Below are positions 26,464 to 62,694 of a DNA stretch of 64,000 bases, one piece after another. Position 1 is the stretch's first letter; each line of letters begins with the position of its first letter. The position numbers were made by a program, and so were the translations under genes. Source of the DNA: an uncultured Dysosmobacter sp. (GTDB taxonomy: Bacteria; Bacillota; Clostridia; Oscillospirales; Oscillospiraceae); contig CANQPD010000014.1 of NCBI GenBank assembly GCA_947625655.1, positions 1 through 64,000 of the forward strand, read 5' to 3'. The notes under the pieces were generated by a model. That model worked only from the letters and a program-made list of their open reading frames with translations. It made no database searches and was not told where the DNA came from.

Positions 26464-26550
26464 GTGATAACTTCCTACGGCGGCATTACCCGCATCAGGT
26501 AAAAGGGTCGAAGCGCACGCTTCCTCTCAGCCGTCCGGCTCCCCTGTTTT
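26464..26550 (-). promoter_or_regulatory. TPP riboswitch controlling thiW-thiM
   Basis: Minus-strand aptamer core: CAGGGGAGCC, GGCTGAGAGGA, GACCCTTTTACCTGATGCGG, GTAATGCCG, CGTAGGAAG. CTGAGA and ACCTGAT are the diagnostic thi-box pieces. Confidence 0.95.
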
Positions 26551-26558
26551 TCAAGGGT

Positions 26559-43660: not shown

Positions 43661-43704
43661 ATGACATTTATCCGTACAGACAGAAAGATAACGAGGTGAA
43701 CTCC

Positions 43705-46311
43705 ATGGCGGAACTGACCCCCATGATGCGGCAATACTTGGAGATCAAAAAGAACAACCCGGATTCCATCCTGTTTTTCCGGCTGGGCGACTTCTACGAG
43801 ATGTTCGACGAGGACGCCCGCCTGGCATCGAAGGAGCTGGATCTGACGCTGACCTCCCGGGACCACGGCAAGCACGCAAAGCCCGCCGAGGAACAGATCC
43901 CCATGTGCGGTATCCCCTATCACGCCAGCGAGGCCTATATCGCCCGCCTGATCGCCAAGGGCTACAAGGTGGCCATCTGCGAGCAGATGGAGGACCCCGC
44001 CGCCGCCAAGGGCCTGGTGAAGCGGGACATCATCCGGGTGGTTACCCCCGGCACCGTCATCGACGCCGCGTGCCTGGACGACAAGGCCAGCAATTTCCTC
44101 TGCGGTATCTACATAGACTCCCGCTCCGCCGGCGCGGCCTTCTGTGACATCACCACCGGCAAGGCCCATCTGACCGCCTTCACCGGCAGGGACCGGGTGG
44201 AGCACGTCATCAACGAGCTGGGCCGCTTCTCCCCGGCGGAGGCCATTCTGAACGACGGCGCCTATGCCGAAAAGGCTCTGACCGGCGCCCTGACGGAAAA
44301 ATTCCGCTGCCGGGTGGAAAACGGCGGCGAACGCCGCTTCCTTTTGAACGAGGCGGAGAAGAACATCCGCAAACAGTTCGGCGAGGACGCCCTGAAAAGC
44401 CTGCCCGCCGGAAATCCGGCGGCGGCCATGGCGCTGGGCGGCCTTTTGAATTATCTGTACGAGACCCAGAAGACCGACCTTTCCCACATCAACGACCTGG
44501 ACTACTACGAGCAGGGCTGGTTCATGGAGCTGGACCTGACCGCCCGGCGGAACCTGGAGCTGACGGAGACCCTCCGGGGCAAGGAGAAGAAGGGGAGCCT
44601 TCTCTGGGTTCTGGACAAGACGAAGACCCCCATGGGCGCCAGGTGCCTGCGGAGCTGGCTGGAGCGGCCCCTGCTTTCCGTCACCGCCATCTGCAGGCGG
44701 AACTCCGCCGTGGCGGCGCTGGTGGATAACACCATCGCAAGAGAAGAGCTGACCGCCGCCATGACGGGCCTGGGGGACATGGAGCGGCTGATCGGCCGCA
44801 TCGTCTACGGCACCGCCGGGGGACGGGATATGGCGTCCCTCCGGGCGGCCATTGAAAAGCTGCCTGCCGTGAAGGAGCAGCTCTCCGCCCTCTCCGACCG
44901 GCGGATCTCCGAGCTGGCGGCGGAGCTGGACACCCTGGACGACATCGGCGAACGCATCGCCGCCGCCATCTGCGACGAGCCGCCGTTTTCCGTCCGGGAG
45001 GGGGGCTTCATCCGGGACGGCTTTGACGAAGAAGTGGACCGCCTGCGGCATATCCTCAAGGGCGGCAAGGGCGTCATCGCGGAGATGGAGGCCAAGGAGA
45101 AGGAGCGCACCGGCATCCGCACGCTGAAGATCGGCTATAACAAGGTCTTCGGCTACTATATCGAGGTCAGCAACTCCTTCCGCGACCAGGTGCCCGACAC
45201 CTATATCCGCAAGCAGACCCTGGTGGGCGGCGAGCGGTTCATCACCCAGGAGCTGAAGGATCTGGAGCACGAGATCCTGACCGCCTCGGAGCGGGTGGTG
45301 GCCCTGGAATATGAGCTGTTCACTAAACTCCGGGAGGAGGTCTCCGGCGAGGCGCAGCGCATCCAGAAAACCGCCGCCGCCATTGCCGAGACCGACGCGC
45401 TGGCGTCCTTCGCCGCCGTGGCGGTGCGGAACAACTACTGCCGCCCTGATGTGGACGAGTCCGGCGTCATCGAGATCAAAGAGGGCCGCCACCCGGTGGT
45501 GGAGCGGGTGCTGAAGGACAGCCTGTTCGTCCCCAACGACACCTTTATGGGGGAAAAGGAGGAACGGGTGGCCATCATCACCGGCCCCAACATGGCGGGC
45601 AAATCCACCTACATGCGCCAGGTGGCGCTGATCGTCCTGATGGCCCAGATGGGCTCCTTCGTCCCGGCGGCCCACGCCCGCATCGGCGTGGTGGACCGCA
45701 TCTTCACCCGCATCGGCGCGTCGGACGACCTCAGCGCCGGGCAGTCCACCTTTATGGTGGAGATGACGGAGGTGTCCGACATCCTGCACCACGCCACGAA
45801 AAATTCCCTGCTGATTCTGGACGAGATCGGACGGGGCACCAGCACCTTTGACGGCATGTCCATCGCCCGGGCGGTGCTGGAGTACTGCGCGGACAAAAAA
45901 ACGCTGGGGGCCAAGACCCTGTTCGCCACCCACTACCACGAGCTGACGGAGCTGGAGAACACCCTCCCCGGCACGGTGAATTACAACATCGCCGTCAGAA
46001 CAAAGGGGGAGGATATCATCTTCCTGCGGAAGATCGTCCCCGGCGGCGCGGACCGCAGCTATGGCATCGAGGTGGCCAAGCTGGCGGGGCTGCCGGACAA
46101 GGTCGTCCAGCGGGCCAAGGCGGTTTTGAAGGAGCTGGAGGAGGAAAACGGCGTGCAGTATGTGGCGGCCCGGAAGGAGACGGACCAGGTGTCCCTGGGG
46201 GCCATTGGCGAGGGCGAGGTGCTGGACGCGCTGCGCCGCTGCCAGCCGGACACCCTGACGCCTATCGAGGCCATGAGCCTGCTGTATGACCTGAAGAAAA
46301 AATTACAGTGA
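43705..46311 (+). CDS. mutS: DNA mismatch repair protein MutS
   Basis: 868 aa. MutS recognises mismatches. The mismatch-binding FYEMF (about 32-36) carries the phenylalanine wedge and glutamate. The ATPase has Walker A GPNMAGKST (about 629), the FMVEMTEVSDIL helix and Walker B-type LILDEIGRGTSTFDG. The start follows GAGGTG. The last 71 bp are duplicated 207 bp downstream on the far side of a small element, so the gene end has been rearranged, but the protein is full-length. Confidence 0.97.
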   Translation: MAELTPMMRQYLEIKKNNPDSILFFRLGDFYEMFDEDARLASKELDLTLTSRDHGKHAKPAEEQIPMCGIPYHASEAYIARLIAKGYKVAICEQMEDPAAAKGLVKRDIIRVVTPGTVIDAACLDDKASNFLCGIYIDSRSAGAAFCDITTGKAHLTAFTGRDRVEHVINELGRFSPAEAILNDGAYAEKALTGALTEKFRCRVENGGERRFLLNEAEKNIRKQFGEDALKSLPAGNPAAAMALGGLLNYLYETQKTDLSHINDLDYYEQGWFMELDLTARRNLELTETLRGKEKKGSLLWVLDKTKTPMGARCLRSWLERPLLSVTAICRRNSAVAALVDNTIAREELTAAMTGLGDMERLIGRIVYGTAGGRDMASLRAAIEKLPAVKEQLSALSDRRISELAAELDTLDDIGERIAAAICDEPPFSVREGGFIRDGFDEEVDRLRHILKGGKGVIAEMEAKEKERTGIRTLKIGYNKVFGYYIEVSNSFRDQVPDTYIRKQTLVGGERFITQELKDLEHEILTASERVVALEYELFTKLREEVSGEAQRIQKTAAAIAETDALASFAAVAVRNNYCRPDVDESGVIEIKEGRHPVVERVLKDSLFVPNDTFMGEKEERVAIITGPNMAGKSTYMRQVALIVLMAQMGSFVPAAHARIGVVDRIFTRIGASDDLSAGQSTFMVEMTEVSDILHHATKNSLLILDEIGRGTSTFDGMSIARAVLEYCADKKTLGAKTLFATHYHELTELENTLPGTVNYNIAVRTKGEDIIFLRKIVPGGADRSYGIEVAKLAGLPDKVVQRAKAVLKELEEENGVQYVAARKETDQVSLGAIGEGEVLDALRRCQPDTLTPIEAMSLLYDLKKKLQ

Positions 46312-46518
46312 GCAAGCTGGCAGCGGCGGTTCGCGCCGGAAGGCGCGTCAAGGGTTTTGCCAAAGGCAAACCCTTGAAATGGACGGGCTTTGCCCGGCCA
46401 TTTGAGTCAAATGCGGGGTCCCCGCCGCGCCCCGCGCGGTGGGGTGCGCCAGCCGGACACCCTGACGCCTATTGAGGCCATGAGCCTGTTGTATGAACTG
46501 AAGAAGAAACTGCAGTGA
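46312..46518 (+). repeat. gene-end element at mutS with duplicated mutS terminus
   Basis: The element (46312-46447) starts with GCTGGCAGCGGCG (46316-46328), the exact inverse of mutS 46234-46246. It then carries hairpins (CAAGGGTTT/AAACCCTTG; GGGC/GCCC) and ATTTGAGTC, and ends GGTGGGGTGC. A second copy of the mutS end follows (46448-46518; 65 of 71 bases identical to 46241-46311) and stops at TGA just before the next gene. The same element type is found at hfq and lepA. Confidence 0.85.
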
Positions 46519-46536
46519 GGCAGAGGGAGGAGACCT

Positions 46537-47247
46537 ATGGCAAAATGCAAGTCCGCCACTTATATGACGGCGGGGGAGCAGATCGCGGGAGTGGTGTTTT
46601 TCGTCATCTATCTGCTGGTGCTGCCCTTTGCCACGGCGCCGCTGTTCCGCCTGGCGGGAAAGCTGCTGGGGGTAAGCATCTCCGGCGCGATGCAGAATGT
46701 GATCTACTACTATGTGCTGTTTGCCGTGACCGTCATCATCTTCCACGGCTTTCTGGCCCGGACCTCCCGGCAGCTGGCGGACAATCCGGGGGGCGCGGGC
46801 AAGGCGCTGGTCGTCGGCCTGATCGGCCTGTACGGCCTGAACGAGCTGGTCTACCGCCTGACGAACCTGGTCATGGCCAACCACACCAACCTGAACGACA
46901 CCACCATCTCCGCCCAGATCGACGACGCGCCCCATATGACGCTGCTGATCGTCATTTTCCTGGCGCCCTTCGTGGAGGAGGTGCTGTTCCGGGGGCTGGT
47001 GTTCGGCAATTTGAAGCACAAGAGCCGGGGGCTGGCCTATCTTGTGTCCTGCGGGCTGTTTGCCCTGCTGCACGTGTGGCAGTTCGCGGTGGTGAACCAG
47101 GACATCACCTATTTCCTGCTGATGATCCAATACCTGGTTCCGGGTCTGGTGCTGGCCTGGGCCTATGAGCACAGCGGCACGCTGTGGACCTCCATCGGCC
47201 TCCACGCCGCTGCCAACGCCCTGAGCGTGTGGACGCTGGTGGGCTGA
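46537..47247 (+). CDS. CPBP family intramembrane metalloprotease
   Basis: 236 aa with about seven membrane segments. The CPBP (Abi/CAAX-like) motifs are present: EEVLFRG (about 149-155), FALLHVWQ with the metal-binding histidine, and GLHAAANAL near the C-terminus. Members may process prenylated or bacteriocin-related peptides. The start follows AGGGAGGAG, directly after the duplicated mutS end. Confidence 0.87.
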   Translation: MAKCKSATYMTAGEQIAGVVFFVIYLLVLPFATAPLFRLAGKLLGVSISGAMQNVIYYYVLFAVTVIIFHGFLARTSRQLADNPGGAGKALVVGLIGLYGLNELVYRLTNLVMANHTNLNDTTISAQIDDAPHMTLLIVIFLAPFVEEVLFRGLVFGNLKHKSRGLAYLVSCGLFALLHVWQFAVVNQDITYFLLMIQYLVPGLVLAWAYEHSGTLWTSIGLHAAANALSVWTLVG

Positions 47248-47278
47248 ATTCTGAGATAGAGATAGGGAAGAGCGTGCT

Positions 47279-48190
47279 ATGAGTTTTTTTGACACCCTTT
47301 GTGAAATGCTGGTGATCCTGTTTGCCATCGTCCTAGGCTATGCCGCCAACCACATGGGCATCATGGGCGGGGAGATGGACCGGAAGGTCAGCAAGCTGCT
47401 TTTGTCATTTACCATGCCCTGCATGATTGTGGCGGCGGTCGTTACCGGGGACGCGCTGCCCGGACTGGCGGAGGTCTTGTCCGTTTTGAAGGTGGCGGCG
47501 GTGTTTTACCTGTTGGAGACCGTGTTCATGCTGGTGGTGCCCCGCTTCTTGGGCGGCACCCCGGCACAGAAAGGCGTCTGGCGGTATGTGCTGGCGTTTC
47601 CCAATGTGGGCTTTATCGGGTATCCGGTGGCGGTGGCGCTGTTTGGGCCGGAGGCGCTGTTTTATGCCGTGGTGCTGGCGCTGCCGTTCAACCTGATGTC
47701 CTTTGCCCTGGGGCCGCTGCTGCTGGTGGGGGCCAAGCGGTTCCAGCTCCGGCAGGTGTTTTCTCCCTGCGTGGTGGCGTCGCTGCTGGCGCTGGTTTTG
47801 GCGCTCAGCGGCCTGCGGCCGCCGGCACTGCTGGGAGAGATGCTGAACTTTGTCGGCGGGATCACCGTGCCGCTGTCGCTGCTGCTGGTGGGGTCTTTGC
47901 TGGCGGGGCTGCCCGCCGGACAGGTGTTTGCCTCGCCCAGGCTGTGGGTGCTGTCGGTCCTGCGGCTGCTGGTGCTGCCGGCGGCGCTGTGGCTGATCCT
48001 GCGGGGAATGGATATTGGCTATATGGTGCTGGGCGTCGCTGTCACCCAGATGGCCATGCCCGCCGCCGTCAACGGCTCCATGCTCTGCATGGAATACGGC
48101 GGCGACAGTCAGTGCATGGCCCAGATCACGTTCTTATCGACTTTGGCATCCATTGTCACCATTCCCGTCATCGCGGCGCTGCTGCTGTGA
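47279..48190 (+). CDS. AEC family transporter (auxin efflux carrier-like)
   Basis: 303 aa, about ten membrane segments in two five-helix halves. FTMPCMIVAAVV, FPNVGFIGYPVAVALFG, GGITVPLSLLLVGSLLA and TQMAMPAAVNGSMLCMEYGGD are typical of the family. It probably moves organic acids; the substrate is unknown. mutL starts 28 bp downstream. Confidence 0.88.
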   Translation: MSFFDTLCEMLVILFAIVLGYAANHMGIMGGEMDRKVSKLLLSFTMPCMIVAAVVTGDALPGLAEVLSVLKVAAVFYLLETVFMLVVPRFLGGTPAQKGVWRYVLAFPNVGFIGYPVAVALFGPEALFYAVVLALPFNLMSFALGPLLLVGAKRFQLRQVFSPCVVASLLALVLALSGLRPPALLGEMLNFVGGITVPLSLLLVGSLLAGLPAGQVFASPRLWVLSVLRLLVLPAALWLILRGMDIGYMVLGVAVTQMAMPAAVNGSMLCMEYGGDSQCMAQITFLSTLASIVTIPVIAALLL

Positions 48191-48218
48191 GACCTTTTTG
48201 AGAGAGGAGGTGGGCGGT

Positions 48219-50231
48219 ATGCCCCATATTCAGCAATTGGAGACCCATGTGGCGGACCTGATCGCCGCGGGCGAGGTGGTGGAGCGGCCGGCCAGCGTGG
48301 TCAAGGAGCTGGTGGAAAACGCCGTGGACGCCGGAGCCACCGCCGTGGTGGTGGAGATCCGGCGGGGCGGCATGGGCATGATCCGCGTGACAGACGACGG
48401 CTGCGGCATCGCCCCTGAGGAGCTGCCCACCGCCTTTCTGCGCCACGCCACCAGCAAGCTCCGCACGCCGGAGGACCTGGGAAAGATCGGCACCCTGGGC
48501 TTCCGGGGCGAGGCCCTGGCGGCCATCTCCGCCGTCAGCCGGGTGGACATCCTGACCCGGCAGCGGGGTGCGGGCAGCGGCGCCTCCCTGCATTTGGAGG
48601 GCGGCGCGCCCGGCCAGGTGGAGGAGGCCGGCGCGCCGGAGGGCACCACCATCCGGGTGGCGGACCTCTTTTACAACACCCCGGCCCGGCTGAAATTCAT
48701 GAAGAAGGACAGCGCCGAGACCGCCGCCGTGGCGGGGCTGATGCAGCACCTGGCCCTGTCCCATCCCGATATTTCCTTCAAATTCATCAAGGACGGGGCG
48801 GAGGCCCTCCACACCCCCGGCGACGGGAAGCTGGACTCCACCGTCTACGCCGCCCTGGGCCGGGACTTTGCCAAAACCCTGATCCCCGTGGAGGGCCGGG
48901 GGGGAGACACGGCGGTCTCCGGCTTTGTGACAGCGCCTTTGATGGGCCGGGGGTCCCGGGCCATGCAGGTGTTTTTCGTCAACGGGCGGTTCATCAAGTC
49001 CCAGCTGCTGACGGCGGCCCTGGAGGAGGGCTACCGCAACCAGATCATGAAGGGCAAGTTTCCCGGCTGCGTGCTTTCCGTGACGCTGCCGGTGACGGCG
49101 GTGGACGTCAACGTCCACCCTGCCAAGACCCAGGTCAAGTTCGCCCGGGAACGGGAGGTATTCGACGCGGTGTACCACACCGTGCTGGACTGCCTGGACG
49201 CCAGGGGCGGGGCGATCCCGGCCCCCAGGAGCCCGGAGCAGGTGGTGAATCCCCGGCGGGACTTCTTCCAGTCCATGGACGCCAAGACCTACCGGGAGCA
49301 GGGCGTGAAAAGCGAGGTCAGGCCGCCGGAGCGGCAGACGCCCCCTGTCCGGCCCTCGGCCCCCGCCCGCCCCGCGTGGGACACGGAGTGGAAACCGGCG
49401 GCCAAGGTGGCGGACAGCGCGCCGGAGAAGCCGTTTTACCGAACGGCCCAGCTCCCGGCAAAGCCCGTGGGCTCCGCTCTGGGCAGGCCGCCGGCCTCTG
49501 TGGCGGCAAAGCCCCCGGAAGCGCCGCCTGCGGAAAGGGCCCCCGCTTCACCGGAACCGGAGGCCCCCGTGAAGCCGGAGGCGGCCCGGCGGCCCTTTGT
49601 GCCCGCCATCCCGGCGGCGCAGCAGGCCCTGGACCTGCCGGGGCAGCAGACCATCGAGCCGCCGAAGGAGGCCCCCTGGCGCATCGCCGGGGAGGTGCTG
49701 CACACCTATATCATCTGCGAGAGCGAAGACGGCTGCGTCTGGCTCATCGACAAGCACGCCGCCCACGAGCGGATCAATTTCGACCGCCTGAAGGCGGCCC
49801 AGACCCCGCCCATGCGGCAGACGCTGCTGCAGCCCGTTGCGGCGGAGCTGGACCGGGAGGCCGGGGCGCTGCTGCTGGAAAACCTGGAGCTGCTGGAGGA
49901 ACTGGGCTTCGCCTGTGAGGACTTCGGCGACGGGGCCATCCTGGTGCGGGAGGTTCCGGCGGACATCGACGCCGGAGACACCGCGGCCACCCTGGAGGAG
50001 CTGGCGGAAAACCTGCGGACTGGCCGGGATCTGGCGGAAAAGCGGGAAAACCTGCTGCACACCATGGCCTGCAAGGCCGCCATCAAGGGCGGCTGGACCA
50101 GCGATGTGGCGGAGCTGAGGGTTTTGGTTGAAAAAGTCCAGAGCGGCGAGGTGCGCTTCTGCCCCCACGGGCGGCCGGTGGCGGTGAAGCTGACCCGATA
50201 CGAGCTGGAGAAGATGTTCAAGCGGGCCTGA
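48219..50231 (+). CDS. mutL: DNA mismatch repair protein MutL
   Basis: 670 aa. The N-terminal GHKL ATPase has ELVENAVDAGA, DDGCGI and GFRGEAL. A long proline/alanine linker (about 370-490) leads to the C-terminal dimerisation/endonuclease domain with DKHAAHERINFD, MACKAAIKGG and CPHGRPV, the set found in nicking MutL proteins. The start follows GAGGAGG. Its partner mutS is about 2 kb upstream, separated by the CPBP and AEC genes. Confidence 0.96.
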   Translation: MPHIQQLETHVADLIAAGEVVERPASVVKELVENAVDAGATAVVVEIRRGGMGMIRVTDDGCGIAPEELPTAFLRHATSKLRTPEDLGKIGTLGFRGEALAAISAVSRVDILTRQRGAGSGASLHLEGGAPGQVEEAGAPEGTTIRVADLFYNTPARLKFMKKDSAETAAVAGLMQHLALSHPDISFKFIKDGAEALHTPGDGKLDSTVYAALGRDFAKTLIPVEGRGGDTAVSGFVTAPLMGRGSRAMQVFFVNGRFIKSQLLTAALEEGYRNQIMKGKFPGCVLSVTLPVTAVDVNVHPAKTQVKFAREREVFDAVYHTVLDCLDARGGAIPAPRSPEQVVNPRRDFFQSMDAKTYREQGVKSEVRPPERQTPPVRPSAPARPAWDTEWKPAAKVADSAPEKPFYRTAQLPAKPVGSALGRPPASVAAKPPEAPPAERAPASPEPEAPVKPEAARRPFVPAIPAAQQALDLPGQQTIEPPKEAPWRIAGEVLHTYIICESEDGCVWLIDKHAAHERINFDRLKAAQTPPMRQTLLQPVAAELDREAGALLLENLELLEELGFACEDFGDGAILVREVPADIDAGDTAATLEELAENLRTGRDLAEKRENLLHTMACKAAIKGGWTSDVAELRVLVEKVQSGEVRFCPHGRPVAVKLTRYELEKMFKRA

Positions 50232-50252
50232 CGGCCATCAAGGAGGATCAAC

Positions 50253-50441
50253 ATGGCGAAAAAGGACGAGCGGTTTATCAAGACTTACAGTCAGGGAGTG
50301 GTGACCATCAGCGAGATCTGGGTGGACCGGGAGACCGGGGTGAATTACCTCTTCCACAAGGACGGCTACGGCGGTGGTCTGACGCCGCTGCTGGACCGGG
50401 ACGGAAAGCCCGTCGTCACGACGGTATACGATGAGGAGTAA
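50253..50441 (+). CDS. DUF6440 family small protein
   Basis: 62 aa. The pattern RFIKTYSQG, IWVDRETGVNYLFHKDGYGGGLTPLLDRDG matches the DUF6440 family of small Firmicutes proteins, which have no known function. The ATG follows AAGGAGG. It is cotranscribed with mutL and the following oxidoreductase. Confidence 0.8.
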   Translation: MAKKDERFIKTYSQGVVTISEIWVDRETGVNYLFHKDGYGGGLTPLLDRDGKPVVTTVYDEE

Positions 50442-50444
50442 ACG

Positions 50445-51038
50445 ATGAAACTGTTATTTGTGGACTGCTGCATCAGCCAGCGGGGAGCGGAGTCCCGGAC
50501 CCGGGCGCTGACGGAGGCGTTTTTGAAGGTATTCCGGAAAGCACATCCGGAGGCGGAGATCGAGACCGTGATGCCGGAGGCCCTGCTGGCCCTGAAGCCC
50601 TTCGCGCCGGATATGCTGGACGAGCGGGACGCCCTGGCCTCTGTGGAGGCCTGGGACGCGCCGGTATTTGACCTGGCCCGGCAGTTCCGGGGGGCGGACC
50701 GGATCGCGGTGGCCGCGCCCTTCTGGGATCTGAGCTTCCCGGCGGCGCTGCGGACGTATATTGAGTACATCTCCGCCAACGGGCTGACCTATCACTACGA
50801 GGCGGACGGCTGCCACGGCGACTGTAAGGCGGAGCGGCTGGTGTATCTGACCTCCGGCGGCGACTTCGAGCGGGAGGACAGCATCGGCGTGGTGTACTGG
50901 CGGCAGCTTTGTGCCATGTTCGGCATCGGGCAGTTCGACTATGTGTTCGCCGGGGGGCTGGATATCGACCCAGCGAAAACGCCGGAGCTGCTGGACGGGG
51001 CCTGCGGCCTGGCGGAGAAGCTGGCGGAGACCTTCTGA
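50445..51038 (+). CDS. NAD(P)H-dependent oxidoreductase (flavodoxin-like fold)
   Basis: 197 aa. The N-terminal KLLFVDCCISQRGAESRTRALTEAF is a flavodoxin-fold FMN phosphate-binding loop. APFWDLSFPAALRTYIEYI and YLTSGGDF are typical of AzoR/MdaB-type quinone or azo reductases. It starts three bases after the DUF6440 stop. The substrate is unknown. Confidence 0.83.
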   Translation: MKLLFVDCCISQRGAESRTRALTEAFLKVFRKAHPEAEIETVMPEALLALKPFAPDMLDERDALASVEAWDAPVFDLARQFRGADRIAVAAPFWDLSFPAALRTYIEYISANGLTYHYEADGCHGDCKAERLVYLTSGGDFEREDSIGVVYWRQLCAMFGIGQFDYVFAGGLDIDPAKTPELLDGACGLAEKLAETF

Positions 51039-51051
51039 AAGGGGGCGCGGG

Positions 51052-51576
51052 ATGAAGCGGGAAAACCGGATCCTGCTGGGGATCGCGGTGCTGCTGATCG
51101 CGGCCTGCCTGGGGGACGTCTGGTTCCGGCGGCAGGGAAAGGCGCGGACCTTGGCGGAACAGGAGGCCAGGGAGGGCAGCGTGGTGATCGAAAATTCCCA
51201 TGTGCTCTCCGGCGCGGATATCTGGGCGGAGTTCTATCAGGCGGCCCAGGCCGGGGAGCCCGCCCAGGTCCGGCTGGTCAAAAGCTATACCGGCGTGGGG
51301 GAGGACAGCACCTATATCACGGACCTGGCCTTTGATGGGGAGACCTATGCCATTGCGGGCAGCCAGGACACCTATCGATATCTGCTCTGCTTTCCGGATG
51401 TGGCGTCGCCCAGCGGCGCGAGAACTTCCAGCGCGACCTATTATATCCTGTCCAACGACGACACGGTGACGCCGGAGAAGATCGAACGGTATGAAACCTC
51501 GTCTTTTGCTTTTGAGGAAACGCCGCCGGACGCCTACAAAGTGTACACGGAATACGTCTGGAAAGACGAGCCGTAA
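51052..51576 (+). CDS. hypothetical lipoprotein
   Basis: 174 aa. The N-terminus MKRENRILLGIAVLLIAACLG reads as a lipoprotein signal (charged start, hydrophobic run, LIAAC lipobox with Cys19), though a simple membrane anchor is possible. The rest is a soluble domain of about 150 residues with no recognised family. The start follows AAAGGGGG. It lies between an oxidoreductase and miaA. Confidence 0.68.
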   Translation: MKRENRILLGIAVLLIAACLGDVWFRRQGKARTLAEQEAREGSVVIENSHVLSGADIWAEFYQAAQAGEPAQVRLVKSYTGVGEDSTYITDLAFDGETYAIAGSQDTYRYLLCFPDVASPSGARTSSATYYILSNDDTVTPEKIERYETSSFAFEETPPDAYKVYTEYVWKDEP

Positions 51577-51600
51577 TTTGCGGGAAAGGAAGGTGAGACC

Positions 51601-52545: not shown

Positions 52546-52602
52546 CCTCAGGCGGACGAAACATGGAACATCGTCCGTACAAAGAAAAAAGGAGCGGACG
52601 AT

Positions 52603-52827
52603 ATGCAGAGCAAAGCGAATTTACAGGACATTTTTCTCCTTCGGGCTAGACGGGACAAGGTGCCTGTCACCATGTTTTTGATGAACGGCTTCCAGATGCG
52701 GGGGACCATCACCGGCTTCGATGCCTTTGTGGTCACCCTGGACAGCGACGGCAGGCAGCAGATTATCTATAAACATGCGATTTCGACGATCGCGCCCATC
52801 AGGCCGGTGGATATGGCGGAGGAATGA
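52603..52827 (+). CDS. hfq: RNA chaperone Hfq
   Basis: 74 aa. Hfq forms hexamers that pair small RNAs with mRNAs. The Sm1 motif ([41 protein letters not shown]) and the Sm2 motif (IIYKHAIST) are intact. The protein ends DMAEE. A second copy of the last 76 bp lies downstream, past a small element, and would end DVAEELP, so the native C-terminus may have been trimmed by two residues. Confidence 0.96.
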
Positions 52828-53060
52828 GCTTGCCGCCGCGCGAGCGGAAGCGAGCCGCCGCGAAAGCGGCGTCAAGCGTTTTGCCCGCAGGGCAAAACCT
52901 TGAAATCGACCGGATTCATTCCGGGCGATTTGAGTCCAATGTGGGGACCCACGCGATGCGCAGCATCGGGTGGGGCGGCAGGCAGCAGATTATCTATAAA
53001 CATGCGATTTCGACGATCGCGCCCATCAGGCCGGTGGATGTGGCGGAGGAACTGCCGTAA
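52824..53060 (+). CDS. doubtful ORF fusing the element to a duplicated Hfq end
   Basis: 78 codons, starting at an ATG that overlaps the hfq stop (ATGA) and reading through the element into the duplicated hfq terminus in the hfq frame. The last 25 residues equal the Hfq C-terminus except M to V and two extra residues (LP). The first 50 residues are unlike any known protein. It may be a chance open frame. Confidence 0.2.
52828..53060 (+). repeat. gene-end element at hfq with duplicated hfq terminus
   Basis: The element (52828-52975) begins GCTTGCCGCCGC, nearly the inverse (10 of 12) of hfq 52745-52756. A GC-rich hairpin (GCGAGCGG...), the hairpin CAAGCGTTTTG/CAAAACCTTG, a CCGG/CCGG hairpin around ATTCATT and GATTTGAGTC follow, ending GGTGGGGCGG. 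Copy 2 of the hfq end is 52976-53051, identical to 52749-52824 at 75 of 76 positions. Confidence 0.85.
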
Positions 53061-53104
53061 TCGGAGCGCGCCTTTGGGAGCGCGTGGTACATAAGAGGTT
53101 TTCC

Positions 53105-54370: not shown

Positions 54371-54435
54371 CCGATTTTTTTAGAATACGGAAGGATTAAG
54401 AGACGGAATCAATTGGGAAGGAAGTTGGAACGCTT

Positions 54436-55128: not shown

Positions 55129-55152
55129 GGACTCCAACAAGGAGGTTTTGCC

Positions 55153-55587
55153 ATGAGCATCATTGACGAGCTGAAGAAGCTGGCGCACCCTTATGAAGAT
55201 GAAGACGAGGAATTTGAGGACTTTGAGGAGACGCCCCGGAAGGACGCCTTTGAGGAGCGCCGCAGCAAGGCCGAGGACCGCCGCAACAAGGTGGTGAACA
55301 TCCATGCCACCACCCAGCTGAAGGTAGTGCTGGTGAAGCCGGAGCGGTTTGAAAACGCGTCGGAGATCGCCGACCATCTGAAGGACAAGCGGACAGTGGT
55401 TTTGAACCTGGAGTCCACCAACAAGGATATTGCCCGCCGCCTCATCGACTTTTTGTCCGGCGTGGCCTACGCCGGAGAGGGCAAAATCAAAAAGGTGGCC
55501 GCCAACACCTACATCATCACGCCCTACCATGTGGATATCGAGGGCGACCTGATCGACGAGCTGGAGAGCAACGGGCTGTATTTTTAA
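55153..55587 (+). CDS. sepF: Cell division protein SepF
   Basis: 144 aa. SepF anchors FtsZ to the membrane. A short amphipathic N-terminus (MSIIDELKKLAHPY) is followed by an acidic linker and the SepF core (LKVVLVKPERFENASEIADHL, RTVVLNLESTNKDIARRLIDFLSGVAYA). Length is normal. The start follows AAGGAGG. Confidence 0.94.
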   Translation: MSIIDELKKLAHPYEDEDEEFEDFEETPRKDAFEERRSKAEDRRNKVVNIHATTQLKVVLVKPERFENASEIADHLKDKRTVVLNLESTNKDIARRLIDFLSGVAYAGEGKIKKVAANTYIITPYHVDIEGDLIDELESNGLYF

Positions 55588-55632
55588 GGAAAATCTAAAC
55601 CAAACGGATTTTGATAGGGGGATCAACGGGAT

Positions 55633-56322
55633 ATGCTGACACCGCAGGAGGTTTCCACCCATGCCTTTACCAAGGCGGTCATGGGCGGCTACAACATGGC
55701 CATGGTCGACGAGTTTCTGGACGAGCTGACCGACGATTACACGGCCCTTTACAAGGAAAACGCGGCCCTGAAGGCCAAGATGAAGGTTTTGGTGGAAAAG
55801 GTGGAGGAGTACCGCGCCACCGAGGATTCCATGCGGGCCACCCTGCTGACCGCCCAGCGGATGGCGGATTCCATCGTCCGGGAGGCCGAGGGCAAGCGGG
55901 ATGAGATCCTGGCCAAGGCCGAGGCCGGCGCCCAGGAGAAGATCGCCCGCTATCAGCAGGAGCTGGCCGCGGCGGAGGACCGGCTGAAGCAGGGACAGCA
56001 GGAGCTGGCCCGGTTTATCGCCGCCAGCCGGGAGATCTGTGACAAGGAGCTGCAATTCCTGGAGCAGCTGCCCCAGCTGCCGGTGGAGACGGAGCAGCCC
56101 GCCCCGGCGGAGGCCCCTGTGGAGGAGATCGAGGAGAAGGTGATGGCGGCCTTTTCCGCCCAGCAGCCTGAGGAGGCGCCGGAGGAGCAGCCCGCCCCGG
56201 AGACGCCGGCGGACGACTATCCCGAGGGCGACCCCTTTGCCCGGGAAGAGCCTCTGGAGGCCACCCGCCGCATCAATCTGGACGATCTGAAGTTTGGCCG
56301 CAACTACGGCGGAGAGAGCTAA
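55633..56322 (+). CDS. DivIVA domain-containing protein
   Basis: 229 aa. The N-terminal DivIVA motif (MLTPQEVSTHAFTKAVMGGYNMAMVDEFLDEL) binds curved membrane. A long coiled coil (about 40-150) and a proline/glutamate-rich tail follow. It acts in pole or septum localisation. It is next to sepF, as expected. Confidence 0.93.
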   Translation: MLTPQEVSTHAFTKAVMGGYNMAMVDEFLDELTDDYTALYKENAALKAKMKVLVEKVEEYRATEDSMRATLLTAQRMADSIVREAEGKRDEILAKAEAGAQEKIARYQQELAAAEDRLKQGQQELARFIAASREICDKELQFLEQLPQLPVETEQPAPAEAPVEEIEEKVMAAFSAQQPEEAPEEQPAPETPADDYPEGDPFAREEPLEATRRINLDDLKFGRNYGGES

Positions 56323-56398
56323 ACGGACCTGAAAAGCGGCTCGGCTTGGCGAAAGGCGTTTCGCCAGGCCGGCCGCTTTTTTCTGAAAGGAGCGGCTT

Positions 56399-57280
56399 AT
56401 GGCCAAGCAGCGGCCCATCGTGGCGTTTTTGTACGACTTTGACAAGACCCTGTGCACCACCGACATGCAGGACTACGCCTTCATCCCCAGCCTGGGCATG
56501 ACCCCGGCGGAATTTTGGGCGGAGGCCAACGGCTTTGGCCGGGCCAACCGCATCGACGGCATCCTGGCCTATATGTACACCATGATCCGGGAGGCGGAGC
56601 GGAAAAACCTGCCCTTTACCCGGGAGGACCTGGTGGAGAAGGGCCGGAGCATCGTGCTCTTCCCCGGTGTGCGGGACTGGTTCCGCCGCATCAACGCCTT
56701 CGGCGAGAGCCAGGGGGTCCGGGTGGAGCACTACATCATCTCTTCCGGCCTGCGGGAGATCATTGAGGGGTCCTCCATCAGCGGCGAATTCAAGGAGATC
56801 TACGCCAGCGAGTTCTACTACGACGGGGCGGGCCGCCCGGTGTGGCCTAAGCTGGCGGTGAACTTCACCGCCAAGACCCAGTTCGTCTACCGCATCAACA
56901 AGGGCGTGCTGGACGTGTCCGACGACAAGACCCTCAACGACTCCATGCCCGACGACAGCAAGCGGGTGCCCTTCACCAACATGATTTATATGGGCGACGG
57001 CCTCTCCGACGTGCCCTGCATGAAGATGATGCGGGCCTACGGCGGCCAGGCCATCGCGGTGTATCAGCAGAGCAACCGCCTGGGGGTGGAGGACCTGCTG
57101 GCCAAGGGGCGGGTGGATTTCATCTTCCCGGCGGACTACAGCGAGGGCACCGCCCTGGATCTGACGGTGAAGAACATTATCCGCAAAATGGCCATCACGG
57201 ACCTGCTGTGGGAGGAGAATGTCCAGCAGCTGCGCTCCATCGGGGGGGATGTGCTGCCCGACCAGGTGGGACTGTTCTGA
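56399..57280 (+). CDS. HAD family hydrolase
   Basis: 293 aa. HAD motif I FLYDFDKTLCTTDMQ (residues 10-24), motif II YIISSGLREII and motif IV IYMGDGLSDVPCMKMM are clear. The spacing and the large cap after motif I resemble the phosphoserine phosphatase-like branch. The substrate is unknown. The start follows AAAGGAG. Confidence 0.86.
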   Translation: MAKQRPIVAFLYDFDKTLCTTDMQDYAFIPSLGMTPAEFWAEANGFGRANRIDGILAYMYTMIREAERKNLPFTREDLVEKGRSIVLFPGVRDWFRRINAFGESQGVRVEHYIISSGLREIIEGSSISGEFKEIYASEFYYDGAGRPVWPKLAVNFTAKTQFVYRINKGVLDVSDDKTLNDSMPDDSKRVPFTNMIYMGDGLSDVPCMKMMRAYGGQAIAVYQQSNRLGVEDLLAKGRVDFIFPADYSEGTALDLTVKNIIRKMAITDLLWEENVQQLRSIGGDVLPDQVGLF

Positions 57281-57310
57281 CGGCTTCTCCGGTGTGCTGA
57301 CAAAAGATTG

Positions 57311-57346
57311 AAAGCGGCCCTCCCGCATCCGCGGGCGGGCCGCTTT
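57311..57346 (+). terminator. probable terminator after the HAD gene
   Basis: AAAGCGGCCC/GGGCCGCTTT outer stem with a weak T run. Confidence 0.5.
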
Positions 57347-57381
57347 CCGCTGAGCCGGCTGCGGAAAATCTCCCCAAGGAC

Positions 57382-57410
57382 TTTACATTCGGTAACTTCT
57401 CTGCTAAACT
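57382..57410 (+). promoter_or_regulatory. promoter of the 57453 XRE gene
   Basis: TTTACA, 17-base spacer, TAAACT, 43 bp upstream of the start codon. Confidence 0.6.
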
Positions 57411-57452
57411 ATACCCTGCGTATTTAGAAACAAACCCAAAGGAGAGAGAAAG

Positions 57453-58136
57453 ATGGCTTCCACTTCTGAATTTTCCCGCACGCTGTCCCTGCTGCGGCGG
57501 GAGCGGGGCGTTTCCCAGCGCACCGCGGCGGCGGACCTGGGCATCTCCCAGGCGCTGCTTTCCCACTATGAAAACGGTGTCCGGGAGCCGGGCCTTTCCT
57601 TCGTGGTGAAGGCCTGCGATTACTATAACGTCTCCGCTGACTTTATCCTGGGCCGCACTTTGTCCCGGGAGGGCAGCATGCTGACCCGTGAAGAGGTGCT
57701 GAACGCCGCCGAGCCGGGGAACATCCTCCAGGGCAGTGTCATGGCGACGCTGCAGAGCAAGCTGCTCTCCGGCGCGGTGGGGGTGCTGTTCGGCCTGCTG
57801 GGCAAGCTGGGGGACAAGGCCGCCATCAATGCGGCGGCGTCCTATCTGGGCAGCGGGGTGTATCAGCTGTACCGCCATTTGTACAAGGCCGCCGGGGCCA
57901 ACGAGGCGTACTTCGCCCTGGACCCCGCCGGCTGTGCCATGGGCATGGCCGGGGCGGACATGAAGCTGTCTGAGAACCGCTATGCCCACGCCCTGCGGAG
58001 CCAGGCGGCCCGGAAGGCGGAATTTCCTGACCTGTCGGCGGAAGCCCTGGCCGCCGCCTATCCCGGCCGCTGCCAGAGCCTGACCCAGGTGCTCAGCACC
58101 GCCGACGCCCGGCTGAACAAGCTGTCGGAGCAGTGA
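57453..58136 (+). CDS. XRE family regulator with C-terminal extension
   Basis: 227 aa. The N-terminal HTH_3 domain (LLRRERGVSQRTAAADLGISQALLSHYENGVREPG, about 12-46; VKACDYYNVSADFILGRTL follows) is joined to a 150-residue mostly helical part with glycine-rich stretches (SGAVGVLFGLLGKLGDKAAIN). The extension is not a recognised sensor domain. It is followed at once by an MBOAT gene (one base between), so it may be cotranscribed with surface-polymer modification. Confidence 0.85.
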   Translation: MASTSEFSRTLSLLRRERGVSQRTAAADLGISQALLSHYENGVREPGLSFVVKACDYYNVSADFILGRTLSREGSMLTREEVLNAAEPGNILQGSVMATLQSKLLSGAVGVLFGLLGKLGDKAAINAAASYLGSGVYQLYRHLYKAAGANEAYFALDPAGCAMGMAGADMKLSENRYAHALRSQAARKAEFPDLSAEALAAAYPGRCQSLTQVLSTADARLNKLSEQ

Positions 58137-58137
58137 G

Positions 58138-59562
58138 ATGAGCTTTCAGTCTTTTTCATTTCTGGCCTTTTTGGCCCTTACTGTGACCGTGTGCCTGACG
58201 GCGGGGCGAAAGGCCCCGTGGCTGGGGCGGTTGCTGCTGATGCTGGCCTGCCTGGTGTTTTACATCGCCGGAGCGGGCTGGACCGGCTTCCTGGTGCTGG
58301 CGGTGGGCATGACGGTGACCGCCGTGACCCTCCAACGCCTGTGCGGGGAAGATGCGCCCGCCCGCCGCAGGGCGATGGCCCTGGCCTGCTGCTATCACAT
58401 TGCCGTGCTGGCGGCCTTTAAATACGCCGGCTTCCTTACCGGCGGCAGAGTGTCCGCCGGGTGGGCGCCCCTGGGACTCAGCTTCTTCACCTTTCAGCAG
58501 CTGTGGCTACTGAAGGAGGGCTATACCCGGCAGTATGTGCCCGCCCAGGGGGACGATTTGATCCTCTACGCGTTTTTCTTCCCCACCGTCACCTCCGGCC
58601 CCATCCTGCGGCCCGGGGCGTTCTTCCCTCAGCTGCGGGGGGACAAGTTTCTGCACCCTGATTGGCAGGACGCGGCCGCGGGCCTGTATGCCATCTGCAT
58701 CGGCATGGCGAAAAAGGCCCTGCTGGCGGAGGGCTTCGGCGTCATCGTCAACAACGGCTATGCCCATCCGGAGCAGCTGACCACCCTGTCGGGCGCCATG
58801 GTGGTGCTGGGCTATACCCTGCAATTGTACTTCGATTTCTCCGGCTACTGCGATGTGGCGGCGGGCTGCGCCCGGCTGCTGGGCATCCGCCTGCCGGTGA
58901 ACTTTGATTCGCCCTACCGCAGCCTGTCCGTGGGGGAGTTCTGGAAGCGGTGGCACATCACCCTGACCACTTTTCTGCGGGAGTGCCTCTATTTCCCCCT
59001 GGGCGGCAGCAAAAAGGGCCGTGCCCGGACCTATCTGAATATTCTCATCGTCTTTCTCGTCAGCGGCCTGTGGCACGGCGCCGGGTGGACCTTCCTGCTG
59101 TGGGGCGCTCTCCACGGCCTGGCCCAGATCGCGGAGCGATTGCTGGGACGGCGTCTGGACAGGCTCCCCGCCTGGCTGCGGTGGGGACTGACCTTCGTCT
59201 TCGTCAACCTGGCCTGGGTCTACTTCCGGGCGCCGACGGTGGCGGCGGGCAACCAGATCCTGGGCGCCCTGTGCGCCTTTGACTTCGCCAAGCCCACGCA
59301 GTGGCTGTCCGAGGGCCTGTTCACCTGTGAGCAGGAGGTTATCCGCATCCTGCTGCCGGCCATTGCGCCCTGGCGCAACACGCTGGTGACGGGGACGCTG
59401 TACATCGTGGGCCTGGCCGCCGTGCTGTGGCCCCGGAACGCCGTCCGGGAGATGGACCGGTTCCGGCCCACTTTTTGGCGGGGCGCGGCCCTGTGGGTGC
59501 TGGGAGTGTGGTCGGTGCTGTCCTTCAGCGGCATCACGCAGTTTATCTATGCGAATTTTTAA
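58138..59562 (+). CDS. MBOAT family O-acyltransferase
   Basis: 474 aa, about ten membrane segments. It transfers acyl groups, often acetyl, to surface polysaccharides (AlgI/DltB type). LGLSFFTFQQ, TSGPILRPGAFFPQL, LYFDFSGYCDVAAGCARLLGI, FWKRWHITL and the catalytic histidine in VSGLWHGAGWTFLLWG are diagnostic. Its partner is the AlgX-like gene that starts 14 bp downstream. Confidence 0.93.
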   Translation: MSFQSFSFLAFLALTVTVCLTAGRKAPWLGRLLLMLACLVFYIAGAGWTGFLVLAVGMTVTAVTLQRLCGEDAPARRRAMALACCYHIAVLAAFKYAGFLTGGRVSAGWAPLGLSFFTFQQLWLLKEGYTRQYVPAQGDDLILYAFFFPTVTSGPILRPGAFFPQLRGDKFLHPDWQDAAAGLYAICIGMAKKALLAEGFGVIVNNGYAHPEQLTTLSGAMVVLGYTLQLYFDFSGYCDVAAGCARLLGIRLPVNFDSPYRSLSVGEFWKRWHITLTTFLRECLYFPLGGSKKGRARTYLNILIVFLVSGLWHGAGWTFLLWGALHGLAQIAERLLGRRLDRLPAWLRWGLTFVFVNLAWVYFRAPTVAAGNQILGALCAFDFAKPTQWLSEGLFTCEQEVIRILLPAIAPWRNTLVTGTLYIVGLAAVLWPRNAVREMDRFRPTFWRGAALWVLGVWSVLSFSGITQFIYANF

Positions 59563-59576
59563 AGGGGGGAGAGGGC

Positions 59577-60620
59577 TTGCGGCAAGGATATCGAAAATGG
59601 GCCCTGGGCCTTTTGGCGGCGCTGCTGGCGGGGCTGGGGCTCTGCGCCGCCATTGTCGTGGCGGTGGACCCCTTTTTTCACTACCGGGCGCCAAGCCCGG
59701 AGGCGGAGGTCTGGTTTGAGCAGCGGTACCAGACGGCGGGACTGCTCCGCAGCCAGGACTATGAGACGGTGCTGATGGGCACCTCCCTGGCGGCCAACTA
59801 CCGCCCCCTGTGGTTCGATGCCTATTTTGACACCACGACGGTGAAGGTTACCTTCCCCAACGGCGGCTTTCATGAGTTCACCCAGGCCCTGGACTACGCC
59901 TGCGAGACCCATGATGTGAAGCGGGTGATTTTCGGCCTGGACCCCAACATCCTGGTCCGGGACCCGGAGGAGGCCCCGGACCAGCTTCCGGCGTATCTCT
60001 ACGACACCAACCCCTGGAACGACAGCCCCTATCTGCTGAACAAGGACGTGCTGGTGCGGGCGCTGTATGTGGCGCGGGAGAAGGCGGCGGGCAACACCCA
60101 GGCCCTGCAGGACGCCTTTGTCTGGGACGGGAACGTCTTTTTCTCCCGGGAGCTGGCCCTGGCGGGCTACCAGCGGCCGGAGGTTGAAGACACCGTCCTG
60201 CCGGACGACGCTTTTTTGGATATCTGCGCTAAGAATCTGGACGTGGTGAAGGGCTGGCTGACCAAGTATCCGGATACCGAGTTCATCTTCTACTACTCGC
60301 CGTACAGCATCCTGTTCTGGGACAAAATGGCCCGCCAGGGCCAGACGGACGCCATGTTCACCGCGCTGAAATACGCGACCGGGGAGCTTCTGGCCTACGA
60401 CAACGCGAAGATCCAGTGCTTCCTGACGGATACCGACACCATCACCGACCTGGACAATTACGCCGACCACCTCCACGTGGCGGGCCGGGTGACCTGGCGG
60501 ATGTCCAAGGCCATGGCCCAGACGGAGTATCTGCTGACCCCGGGAAATTATAATGAGAAGTTGGACGCTCTGCGGGAATTTGTGATAAACTACGACTATG
60601 ATAGCATTTGGGAGGACTGA
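59577..60620 (+). CDS. AlgX/DltD-like partner of the MBOAT protein
   Basis: 347 aa. One N-terminal membrane segment (about 9-28) leads to a soluble domain; ETVLMGTSLAANYRP resembles an SGNH-type serine loop, and ADHLHVAGRVTWRMSKAMA near the C-terminus could supply the D-x2-H pair. Such proteins complete acyl transfer with an MBOAT transporter outside the cell. The start is taken as TTG after GGGGGGAG. It ends just before the rearranged lepA start region. Confidence 0.78.
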   Translation: MRQGYRKWALGLLAALLAGLGLCAAIVVAVDPFFHYRAPSPEAEVWFEQRYQTAGLLRSQDYETVLMGTSLAANYRPLWFDAYFDTTTVKVTFPNGGFHEFTQALDYACETHDVKRVIFGLDPNILVRDPEEAPDQLPAYLYDTNPWNDSPYLLNKDVLVRALYVAREKAAGNTQALQDAFVWDGNVFFSRELALAGYQRPEVEDTVLPDDAFLDICAKNLDVVKGWLTKYPDTEFIFYYSPYSILFWDKMARQGQTDAMFTALKYATGELLAYDNAKIQCFLTDTDTITDLDNYADHLHVAGRVTWRMSKAMAQTEYLLTPGNYNEKLDALREFVINYDYDSIWED

Positions 60621-60663
60621 CGGCGTCCCCGCGAACAGAACTGAAAGCCCCAAACGGAGGTTT

Positions 60664-60750
60664 ATGAGAGTGACAAAGCAAGCAAATATCCGAAATTTTT
60701 TCATCATCGCCCACATTGACCGCGGCAAGTCGATTTCCCAGACCGCCTGA
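60664..60750 (+). pseudogene. truncated duplicate of the lepA 5' end
   Basis: A 28-codon frame with its own CGGAGG site, reading [20 protein letters not shown] and ending soon after GKS. Residues 5-22 match the LepA N-terminus ([19 protein letters not shown]). Over 58 bases (60674-60731 against 60893-60950) 51 are identical. It would yield only a short peptide. Confidence 0.8.
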
Positions 60751-60872
60751 GGGCAGTCCGGGAGCCCTTTTGATTGAAAATCCTCGGGCGAAATGAATTC
60801 GCCCTGCGGCAAGGTTTTGGCTGCCGCCAAAACGCTTGTACGCGCGTCCGCGCGAAGCAGCGTGGACTTGCC
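60732..60872 (-). repeat. gene-end element at lepA, inverted orientation
   Basis: Read on the minus strand, it begins GGCAAGTCCACGCTG (60872-60858), which is the exact lepA codon sequence at 60943-60957 in opposite orientation. CAAGCGTTTTG, CAAAACCTTG and a hairpin around ATTCATT then match the hfq element, followed by GATTTT. So it lies between a truncated first copy and the intact second copy of the lepA start. Confidence 0.8.
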
Positions 60873-60888
60873 CAAGGAGGTTTAATAT

Positions 60889-62694
60889 ATGGCAAAACAA
60901 GCAAATATCCGAAACTTTTCGATCATCGCCCACATCGATCACGGCAAGTCCACGCTGGCGGACCGGCTGCTGGAGAAGTGCGAGGCCGTCAGCCAGCGGC
61001 AGATGGAGAGCCAGCTGCTGGACAACATGGACCTGGAGCGGGAGCGGGGCATCACCATCAAGGCCCGGGCCGTCCGGCTGAATTACAAGGCCCGGGACGG
61101 GCAGGTCTATGAGCTGAACCTCATCGACACCCCGGGCCATGTGGACTTCAACTATGAGGTCTCCCGGTCCCTGGCGGCCTGCGAGGGGGCGGTGTTGGTG
61201 GTGGACGCCACCCAGGGCGTGGAGGCCCAGACCCTGGCCAACACCTATCTCGCCATGGAGCATGACCTCGAGATCCTGCCGGTCTTCAACAAGATCGACC
61301 TGCCCGCCGCTGACACCCAGAAGGCCAAGCACGAGGTGGAGGACATCATCGGCCTGCCCGCCATGGACGCGCCGGAGATCTCCGCCAAAATGGGCATCAA
61401 CATCGACGCCGTGCTGGAGGACATCGTGCAGAACGTGCCCGCCCCTGTCGGCGATGTGAACGCGCCGCTGAAGGCCCTGATCTTCGACAGCCAGTACGAC
61501 AGCTACCGGGGCGTCATCGTGTACATGCGGCTGATGGAGGGCAGCCTCCGCACCGGCCAGCAGGTGAAGCTGATGGCCACCGGCGCTGTTTACCAGGTGG
61601 TGGAGTGCGGCCATCTGCTGCCCCTGGGGCTGGAGGCCTGCGACAGCCTGGAGGCCGGCGAGGTGGGGTATTTCACCGCGTCTATCAAGAACGTGCAGGA
61701 CACCCGGGTGGGCGACACCGTCACCGACGCCGCCGTTCCCGCGGCGGAGCCCCTGCCCGGCTACCGCCCGGTGCAGCCCATGGTCTACTGCGGCATCTAC
61801 ACCGAGGACGGCTCCAAGTACCCGGACCTGCGGGACGCCCTGGAGAAGCTGCGGCTGAACGACGCCTCCCTCAGCTTTGAGCCGGAGTCCTCCGCGGCCC
61901 TGGGCTTCGGTTTCCGGTGCGGCTTTCTGGGCATGCTCCACATGGAGGTCATCCAGGAGCGGCTGGAGCGGGAATTCGACCTGGAGCTGGTGACCACCCT
62001 GCCCTCCGTCATCTATAACGTCTACAAGACCGACGGCACGCTGGTAAGGGTGGACAATCCCCACAACTACCCGGATCCCGCCTCCATCGAGCGGGCGGAG
62101 GAGCCTTACGTGAAGGTCTCCATCATCAGCCCCAACGAATATGTGGGCAACATCATGCCCATGTGCCAGAACCGCCGGGGCGAGTTCAAGGATATGCAGT
62201 ATCTGGACACGAATCTGGTGGAGCTCCACTACCAGATGCCTCTGAACGAGATCATCTACGATTTCTTTGACACCCTGAAGGCCAACACCAAGGGCTACGC
62301 CTCACTGGACTATGAGCTGTCCGACTACCGGCCCAGCGAACTGGTGAAGGTGGATCTGCTTTTAAACGGCGACAAGGTGGACGCCCTGAGCTTCATTGCC
62401 CACAAGGACAAGGCATACCCCCGGGCCCGGAAGCTGTGCGAGAAGCTGAAGGAAAACGTGCCCCGCCAGCTGTTCGAGGTGCCTATCCAGGCGGCCATCG
62501 GCGGCCGGGTCATTGCCCGGGAGACCATCAAGGCCATGCGCAAGGACGTGCTGGCCAAGTGCTACGGCGGCGACGTGACCCGGAAGAAAAAGCTGCTGGA
62601 AAAGCAGAAAGAGGGCAAAAAGCGGATGCGGAGTTTGGGCAGCGTACAGATGCCTACAGAGGCGTTTTTGGCGGTGCTCAAGCTGGACGAGTGA
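60889..62694 (+). CDS. lepA: Elongation factor 4
   Basis: 601 aa translational GTPase that acts on stalled or mispositioned ribosomes. G1 [16 protein letters not shown] (about 14-29), G3 [22 protein letters not shown]-type region, G4 NKIDLP and the LepA-specific C-terminal domain ([18 protein letters not shown]) are present. The ATG follows AAGGAGG. An element and a partial copy of its own start lie upstream. Confidence 0.97.

Follow-up and report, generated by a model that had tools for sequence, protein, structure and literature searches.

Short folded elements between duplicated gene ends in Dysosmobacter and its relatives: candidate site-specific homing elements without open reading frames

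Three elements between duplicated gene ends

The DNA analysed here is a stretch of 64,000 nucleotides from an uncultured Dysosmobacter sp. (assembly GCA_947625655.1, contig CANQPD010000014.1), called the window below; coordinates are window positions. It contains three short elements of about 135–160 nt, at the 3' end of mutS, the 3' end of hfq and, inverted, the 5' end of lepA, each located between two copies of the gene end. Along the element strand, the order is the gene body (U), a gene end (A), a short filler, a segment X', the hairpins P1 to P4, the second copy of the gene end (A') and the flank. X' is complementary to a segment X at the junction of U and A. The features are the following.

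43696–46311, plus strand: mutS, target gene 1, invaded at its 3' end (NCBIfam MutS, 1076 bits)
46234–46246, plus strand: X at mutS, the junction segment complementary to X', read directly from the sequence and then scored
46241–46312, plus strand: A at mutS, the gene-linked end copy, 92% identical to 46448–46519
46316–46328, plus strand: X' at mutS, exact inverse of X (13/13), score 13 (locus L051)
46329–46447, plus strand: folded body P1–P4 at mutS (covariance-model match 46329–46425, expect value (E) 2.1e-23)
46332–46347, 46349–46376, 46377–46403 and within 46413–46447, plus strand: hairpins P1, P2, P3 and P4 of the mutS body
46448–46519, plus strand: A' at mutS, the second end copy, 92% identical to A
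52603–52827, plus strand: hfq, target gene 2, 3' end (NCBIfam Hfq)
52745–52756, plus strand: X at hfq, with the limits given in the original prediction, read directly
52749–52824, plus strand: A at hfq, the gene-linked end copy, 99% identical to 52976–53051
52828–52839, plus strand: X' at hfq, 10/12 to 52745–52756, weak alone
52840–52975, plus strand: folded body at hfq, with an extra hairpin ahead of P1 (covariance-model match 52853–52953, E 5.4e-26)
52976–53051, plus strand: A' at hfq, the second end copy, 99% identical to A
60889–62694, plus strand: lepA, target gene 3, 5' end, with the element inverted (NCBIfam lepA, 989 bits)
60943–60957, minus strand: X at lepA, read directly
60876–60950 (limits approximate), minus strand: A at lepA, the gene-linked 5' end with ribosome-binding site, 84% identical to A' (locus L070)
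60858–60872, minus strand: X' at lepA, exact inverse of X (15/15), score 15 (locus L070)
60732–60857, minus strand: folded body at lepA (covariance-model match 60759–60857, E 5.5e-14)
60656–60731 (limits approximate), minus strand: A' at lepA, the second 5' end, 84% identical to A

The original prediction, made from the sequence alone, had described an inverse match between element and gene at each of these sites. Direct reading confirms the matches at mutS (13/13) and lepA (15/15). At hfq the 10 matching positions out of 12 are there as described, with a score of 7, a level reached by 12.6% of mispaired controls, so that this match is weak when taken alone. The gene terminus is duplicated at all three sites as predicted, with identities of 92% (mutS), 99% (hfq) and 84% (lepA), and the three elements do share one body, which covaries. 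The folds have z values of -4.0 for mutS (46312–46452), -6.1 for hfq (52826–52975) and -4.7 for lepA (60727–60874).

Copies, targets and folded body

A BLAST comparison of the mutS body with its own genome gave 13 matches at E below 1e-4, the query copy included, and scanning named genomes with a pattern picked out 21 stretches, most of them from Oscillospiraceae (Flavonifractor, Oscillibacter, Dysosmobacter and Pseudoflavonifractor). At E ≤ 0.1, a covariance model built from 31 bodies finds 40 matches in the own genome, and 37 of these have E below 1e-4. Matches are present in 18 of 41 genomes of the genus and in 47 of 200 genomes, or 34 of 106 genera, of the family, the own genome being counted in both surveys; the family survey gives copy counts per genome as lower bounds. 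From part of the matches listed, 146 distinct copies were collected once 11 duplicates had been removed, 37 from the own genome and the remainder from 17 other genomes of the genus and the named stretches. One further copy of the own genome (L008), left out of the 146, also bears a direct repeat, of 77 bp and 100% identity. The whole observation is confirmed as real and extends far beyond the window. By blastn, the mutS body has no match in phages and none in plasmids, and two exact patterns have none in IMG/VR, so no carriage by phages or plasmids was seen there. No account of this bacterial element was found in the open PMC literature; most subscription journals lie outside it and may contain one.

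A direct repeat across the element (E < 1e-4) is present in 130 of the 146 copies. In a subset of 110 copies with a clean right end and an A of at most 115 bp, A has a median length of 75.5 bp and the median identity of A and A' is 95%. The distance from A to A' in these copies has a median of 140 nt (116–174 nt at the 5th–95th percentile), which is too short for an encoded homing endonuclease. The right end is regular, with A' starting 18–30 nt past the end of the model in 96 of the 130 copies; in a further 14, repeat and model end overlap, as they do in arrays. A mechanical open reading frame (ORF) rule places 88 of the 110 copies at 3' ends, 14 at 5' ends and 8 elsewhere, some of the frames being doubtful, such as that of L054, whose repeated block reads as a tRNA-Leu gene. 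A further set comprises 29 loci, one from each of 29 other genomes. The duplication is found in 23 of them, two of which are array members; at least one of the 29 (L256) coincides with L042, already counted in the first set.

Other features of the copies were noted in passing. The unit forms tandem arrays, repeating every 135–220 bp or so, at L060, L062, L074, L093, L110, L116, L133, L145, L151 and others. Several draft-genome contigs end inside or beside element copies. At L054 (genome G000) the repeated block appears, by reading, to hold the whole tRNA-Leu gene, leaving two near-identical tRNA copies around the element; the bodies of L140 (G007) and L096 (G027) are similar to that of L054.

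The copies with a clean right end and enough upstream sequence number 107 (23 of the 130 were dropped) and represent 61 target contexts, 29 of which hold two or more copies. Targets recognised by family models are leucyl- and aspartyl-tRNA synthetase, EF-G, MutS, IMP dehydrogenase, RsmH, glucose-6-phosphate isomerase, GlmS, release factor 3, UvrB, Hfq and LepA, while formate-tetrahydrofolate ligase, MutL, SecA and acetate kinase were read from translations only. Identical target sites recur in other genera, as the further set of 29 loci reveals. Among the matches listed, the bodies appear, on reading, to resemble one another by target and not by genome. Sites occur both occupied and empty. Thirty mutS loci were read; the element is present in six and a different body in one, and for the others the stretch shown has a single end. 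In mutS the element has two alternative borders, separated by about 13 bp, and X' shifts with the border: one is used in G000 and G027, the other in G004, G008, G017 and G022; in G023, G037, G007 and G028, mutS has one end only. The different body (L173, genome G012), a short hairpin at the same position and likewise flanked by two mutS ends, suggests that a second or degenerate type of body exists.

On the alignment fitted to the structure by the model, 97.4% of the cells are paired and two-sided changes are found in 17 of the 21 pairs; none of 500 shuffles reaches these values on any measure, and pairing never exceeds 55% in slid structures. A plain MAFFT alignment of the 31 bodies, to which no structure was fitted, still has two-sided changes in 11 of the 21 pairs. 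Under strand-symmetric scoring, the non-Watson-Crick pairs in the stems, read on the element strand, comprise 168 G.T, 16 A.C and 124 others, counts to which related copies contribute without being independent. Because of this excess of G.T over A.C, one strand is likely to be the functional one, as RNA or as single-stranded DNA. At the gathering threshold of Rfam, no element in the window or at five loci has a match, and only far sub-threshold hits were obtained.

The window also has Rfam matches elsewhere, to a T-box leader (12046–12303, minus strand) and a TPP riboswitch (26455–26555, minus strand). Another repeated element, rich in inverted repeats and about 0.7–1.3 kb long, has three copies in the window (2085–2831, 23272–24562 and 42407–43597), with some arms 98–100% complementary.

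The complement of the junction and the two gene ends

For scoring X', the left part of each element was reverse-complemented and compared with the border of A. With gaps allowed, 56 of the 107 clean copies score at least 9, against 3.0% of mispairs; ungapped, 55 copies do so, against a mean of 2.3 and a maximum of 8 in 2000 permutations, which still contain same-target pairs. Such scores are found in 0.9% of 632 other windows from the same genes. By target, 34 of the 61 contexts hold a copy that scores at least 9, and in the further set 17 of the 23 duplicated loci do so, against 6.1% of 506 mispairs. The 46 matches scoring at least 10 run at the median from -6 to +7 about the border, with a length of 13, and 42 of them straddle it. 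X' is located directly ahead of P1, or ahead of one extra hairpin.

The covariance-model search had been proposed in the original prediction as a check, and its outcome, duplication in 130 of 146 copies and an X' of at least 9 in 55 of 107 clean ones, is not that of a body whose other copies lack both features. The predicted start of the second copy inside X holds family-wide, X ending at a median of 7 nt past the border. The copies belong to one element family with a constant body, a variable end matched to its target, a duplicated terminus and no room for a protein.

When each X' was compared with the gene of its own host and with that of a relative (141 comparisons), it fits its own host better in 68, equally in 32 and worse in 41. 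Since X' fits the gene of another species better in those 41, it must often have been ready-made on arrival and older than the present insertion, and copying of X' afresh from the present host in every case is disfavoured. The original prediction saw guide or template logic in the target-matched end; this picture is sharpened, the complement being centred on the junction, and templating on the spot is not required.

The two gene ends differ mostly at synonymous sites. Codons of A and A' in 75 pairs from 3' ends, a few of whose frames are probably not genes, differ synonymously in 207 and non-synonymously in 48 of 1574 cases, and single pairs reach 12:0, 10:0 and 7:0. For 12 pairs from 5' ends the numbers are 29 and 12 of 222. 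A freely evolving trailing copy should show mostly non-synonymous change. As the differences are mostly synonymous, A and A' both appear to have been coding during much of the time in which they diverged. Simple target-site duplication in every case is disfavoured by these differences at both 3' and 5' ends; it is kept as a rival in view of the comparison with sister genomes described below.

Proposed homing, its rivals and related systems

Our reading of these copies, with confidence evenly balanced for and against, is that they form one family of site-specific homing elements that lack an ORF. A unit of about 180–220 bp would be mobile, made up of gene end A, X' and hairpins P1–P4. With a length of about 13 nt and a position just 5' of the first hairpin, X' would pair with the target across the insertion point, over about 6 nt of U and about 7 nt of the gene end, and would act as the guide that sets the junction. 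The unit would enter at U|A, where the carried gene end would keep the gene intact and the native end would remain as A'. A trans-acting helper would bind the body, as RNA or as a folded single strand. For the element to spread, U|A would be cut and then repaired with a donor copy as template, so that the gene end of the donor would be imported along with the element. Under such a route the left border would fall in the middle of X, newly formed insertions would have a native A', the same targets would be hit repeatedly and tandem [A-E]n arrays would form. A more specific version, RNA-guided homing of a new kind, is put forward tentatively: each element would produce a small RNA that begins with a guide of 13 nt (X') and continues as a scaffold of four hairpins, a trans-acting protein would use this RNA to cut one gene at the centre of the guide match, and donor repair would copy in the element with a replacement gene end. 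The interpretation given in the original prediction is partly supported; of the causes that it named, integration of a circle carrying a gene end, or RNA-guided insertion in trans, may apply.

Empty sites in sister genomes were compared with A and A' at five loci, and the outcome is mixed: A is clearly foreign at one locus, three lean the opposite way and one gives little information. At L100, the empty site of G037 sides with A' at 7 of 8 differing positions (G023) and at 3 of 4 (G017), so that A is the foreign end there. L156, with A:A' counts of 1:0, 1:0 and 0:1, and the remaining L159 copies, with no site and 0:1, give little information.

Several observations weigh against homing. The empty sister sides with A at L118 (A:A' 10:3 and 8:5), L161 (4:1 and 5:0) and the L159 copy of G037 (4:0), a pattern that fits simple duplication with a decaying A'. 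The left site U|A is intact after insertion, unlike in classical homing. No duplication is found in 16 of the 146 copies, three of which are at contig ends. An X' score of at least 9 is absent in 52 of the 107 clean copies and in 8 of the 14 clean copies with identical A and A', and X' fits its own host better than the relative in only 68 of the 141 comparisons. The mismatches between X and X' have no clear G.U preference (16 G.T, 11 A.C and 60 others). No helper was found among the six protein families searched; integrases were not searched for.

These families were looked for in the ten element-rich genomes of the genus, those with at least 13 copies (G000, G004, G007, G008, G017, G023, G027, G028, G037 and G039). 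Reverse transcriptase (PF00078) is matched in four and undetected in six, and Y1 transposase (PF01797) is matched in six, with several matches partial or stop-broken, and undetected in G000, G008, G017 and G039. IS110 transposase (PF02371) is matched in five genomes. Of the guided nucleases of OMEGA and Cas9 systems, TnpB (PF07282) is matched in two genomes, and IscB RRXRR (PF14239) and Cas9/IscB HNH_4 (PF13395) in one each. All six were rejected as obligatory helpers, being undetected in 6, 4, 8, 5, 9 and 9 of the ten genomes, respectively; absence from a draft genome is weak evidence for a single genome, and here it is consistent over several. A chromosomal integrase could act in trans on the elements.

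Duplicative insertion is the rival that survives best, although we regard it as rather unlikely. A mobile structured element would make an unusually long target duplication (about 40–105 bp), X' would be made by snap-back of the broken strand, which copies the border before joining, and A' would then decay. The exact position of X' on the junction agrees with this, as do the identical A and A' of 14 of the 107 clean copies and the greater divergence of A' than of A, relative to the empty sister, at L118, L161 and the L159 copy of G037. Differences as synonymous as 12:0, 10:0 and 7:0 are not expected of a trailing neutral copy, nor does this scheme anticipate an X' that fits another species better (41 of 141), sites that recur across genera, or bodies apparently related by target.

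Single-stranded DNA transposition like that of IS200/IS605 elements appears improbable. According to PMC5934647, the guide of IS608, 4 nt located just 5' of the hairpin foot, pairs with the cleavage-site tetranucleotide and sets the target. By analogy, a trans-acting nickase would recognise the folded top strand of the present elements, and X', 5' of the hairpin foot, would be an enlarged guide pairing with the cleavage site. The position of X' 5' of a hairpin and the strand asymmetry agree with this logic. A guide of only 4 nt differs from X', however, a carried gene end is not known as part of the IS200/IS605 system, and Y1 is undetected in four of the element-rich genomes and partial or stop-broken in several others.

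Passive spread, in which strain recombination and slippage between repeats multiply an old regulatory or terminator RNA with no dedicated enzyme, is similarly improbable. Tandem [A-E]n arrays and a distribution biased to genomes whose mutS resembles that of the window would be accounted for; left unexplained would be why a complement of 13 nt is centred on the junction, why most copies have a fixed right end and why there are 61 target contexts. An intron-like RNA, with A, X' and the body spliced out, both A and A' translated and X' an internal guide pairing with both exon ends, would match a complement that spans the end of U and the start of A' and the coding-like A' at 3' ends, yet is very improbable given that the elements at 5' ends are antisense to the gene and have a similar, weaker pattern (29:12), and that the body is about 110 nt long with no Rfam match at threshold.

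Group I and IIA introns pair across the splice junction through an internal guide or EBS1-delta. The present elements share with them a continuous pairing over the end of the 5' exon and the start of the 3' exon, but are far too small, have no Rfam match at threshold, and reverse transcriptase is undetected in six of the ten element-rich genomes. The elements of the IS110/IS1111 group have a structured bridge RNA, and their crossover lies within a target of about 14 nt. Here, in contrast, the complement is continuous and on one strand, and IS110 transposase is undetected in five of the ten genomes. Integrase islands in gene 3' ends (tRNA genes, trmE and dusA; in part after PMC8409611) have a similar seat in a gene end and carry a copy that restores the gene, whereas the present elements have no room for an integrase and one body family serves many different targets.

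Homing of the present elements may find its closest working analogue in the mobile-ORF elements of fungal mitochondria. According to two sources (PMC3630166 and PMC7315562), such elements swap gene ends in Allomyces (atp6) and Glomus (atp6, atp9, cox2 and nad3), and introns with host-gene duplication are found in Tremella. In Glomus the gene ends have diverged in nucleotides while being near-identical in protein, and the spread is driven by the element. Their order is gene body, foreign gene end, element and native gene end. The present elements likewise lie between two gene ends, of which the upstream one is clearly foreign at one of the five loci with an empty sister, while three loci lean the opposite way. 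The fungal elements described there number a handful per genome; they either encode an endonuclease, the ORF being about 1 kb long in Glomus atp6, or are introns with a length of about 2 kb. The present ones, by contrast, have no ORF, a structured body of about 110–140 nt and a base-pairing X', and there are dozens per bacterial genome. They are not classed as mobile-ORF elements because the defining endonuclease is lacking.

If homing is correct, these tiny site-specific elements would use base-pairing to spread and would make up for their insertion by supplying a new gene end. As the gene is given a new end, they could occupy core genes such as mutS, hfq, lepA, glmS, uvrB and those for leucyl-tRNA synthetase and EF-G. 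They would be a protein-less counterpart of the gene-end-swapping elements of mitochondria, the encoded endonuclease being replaced by a base-pairing guide, and would suggest that a guided enzyme for cutting or recombination has yet to be described. They would also provide a steady route for the exchange of core-gene ends between species of gut bacteria.

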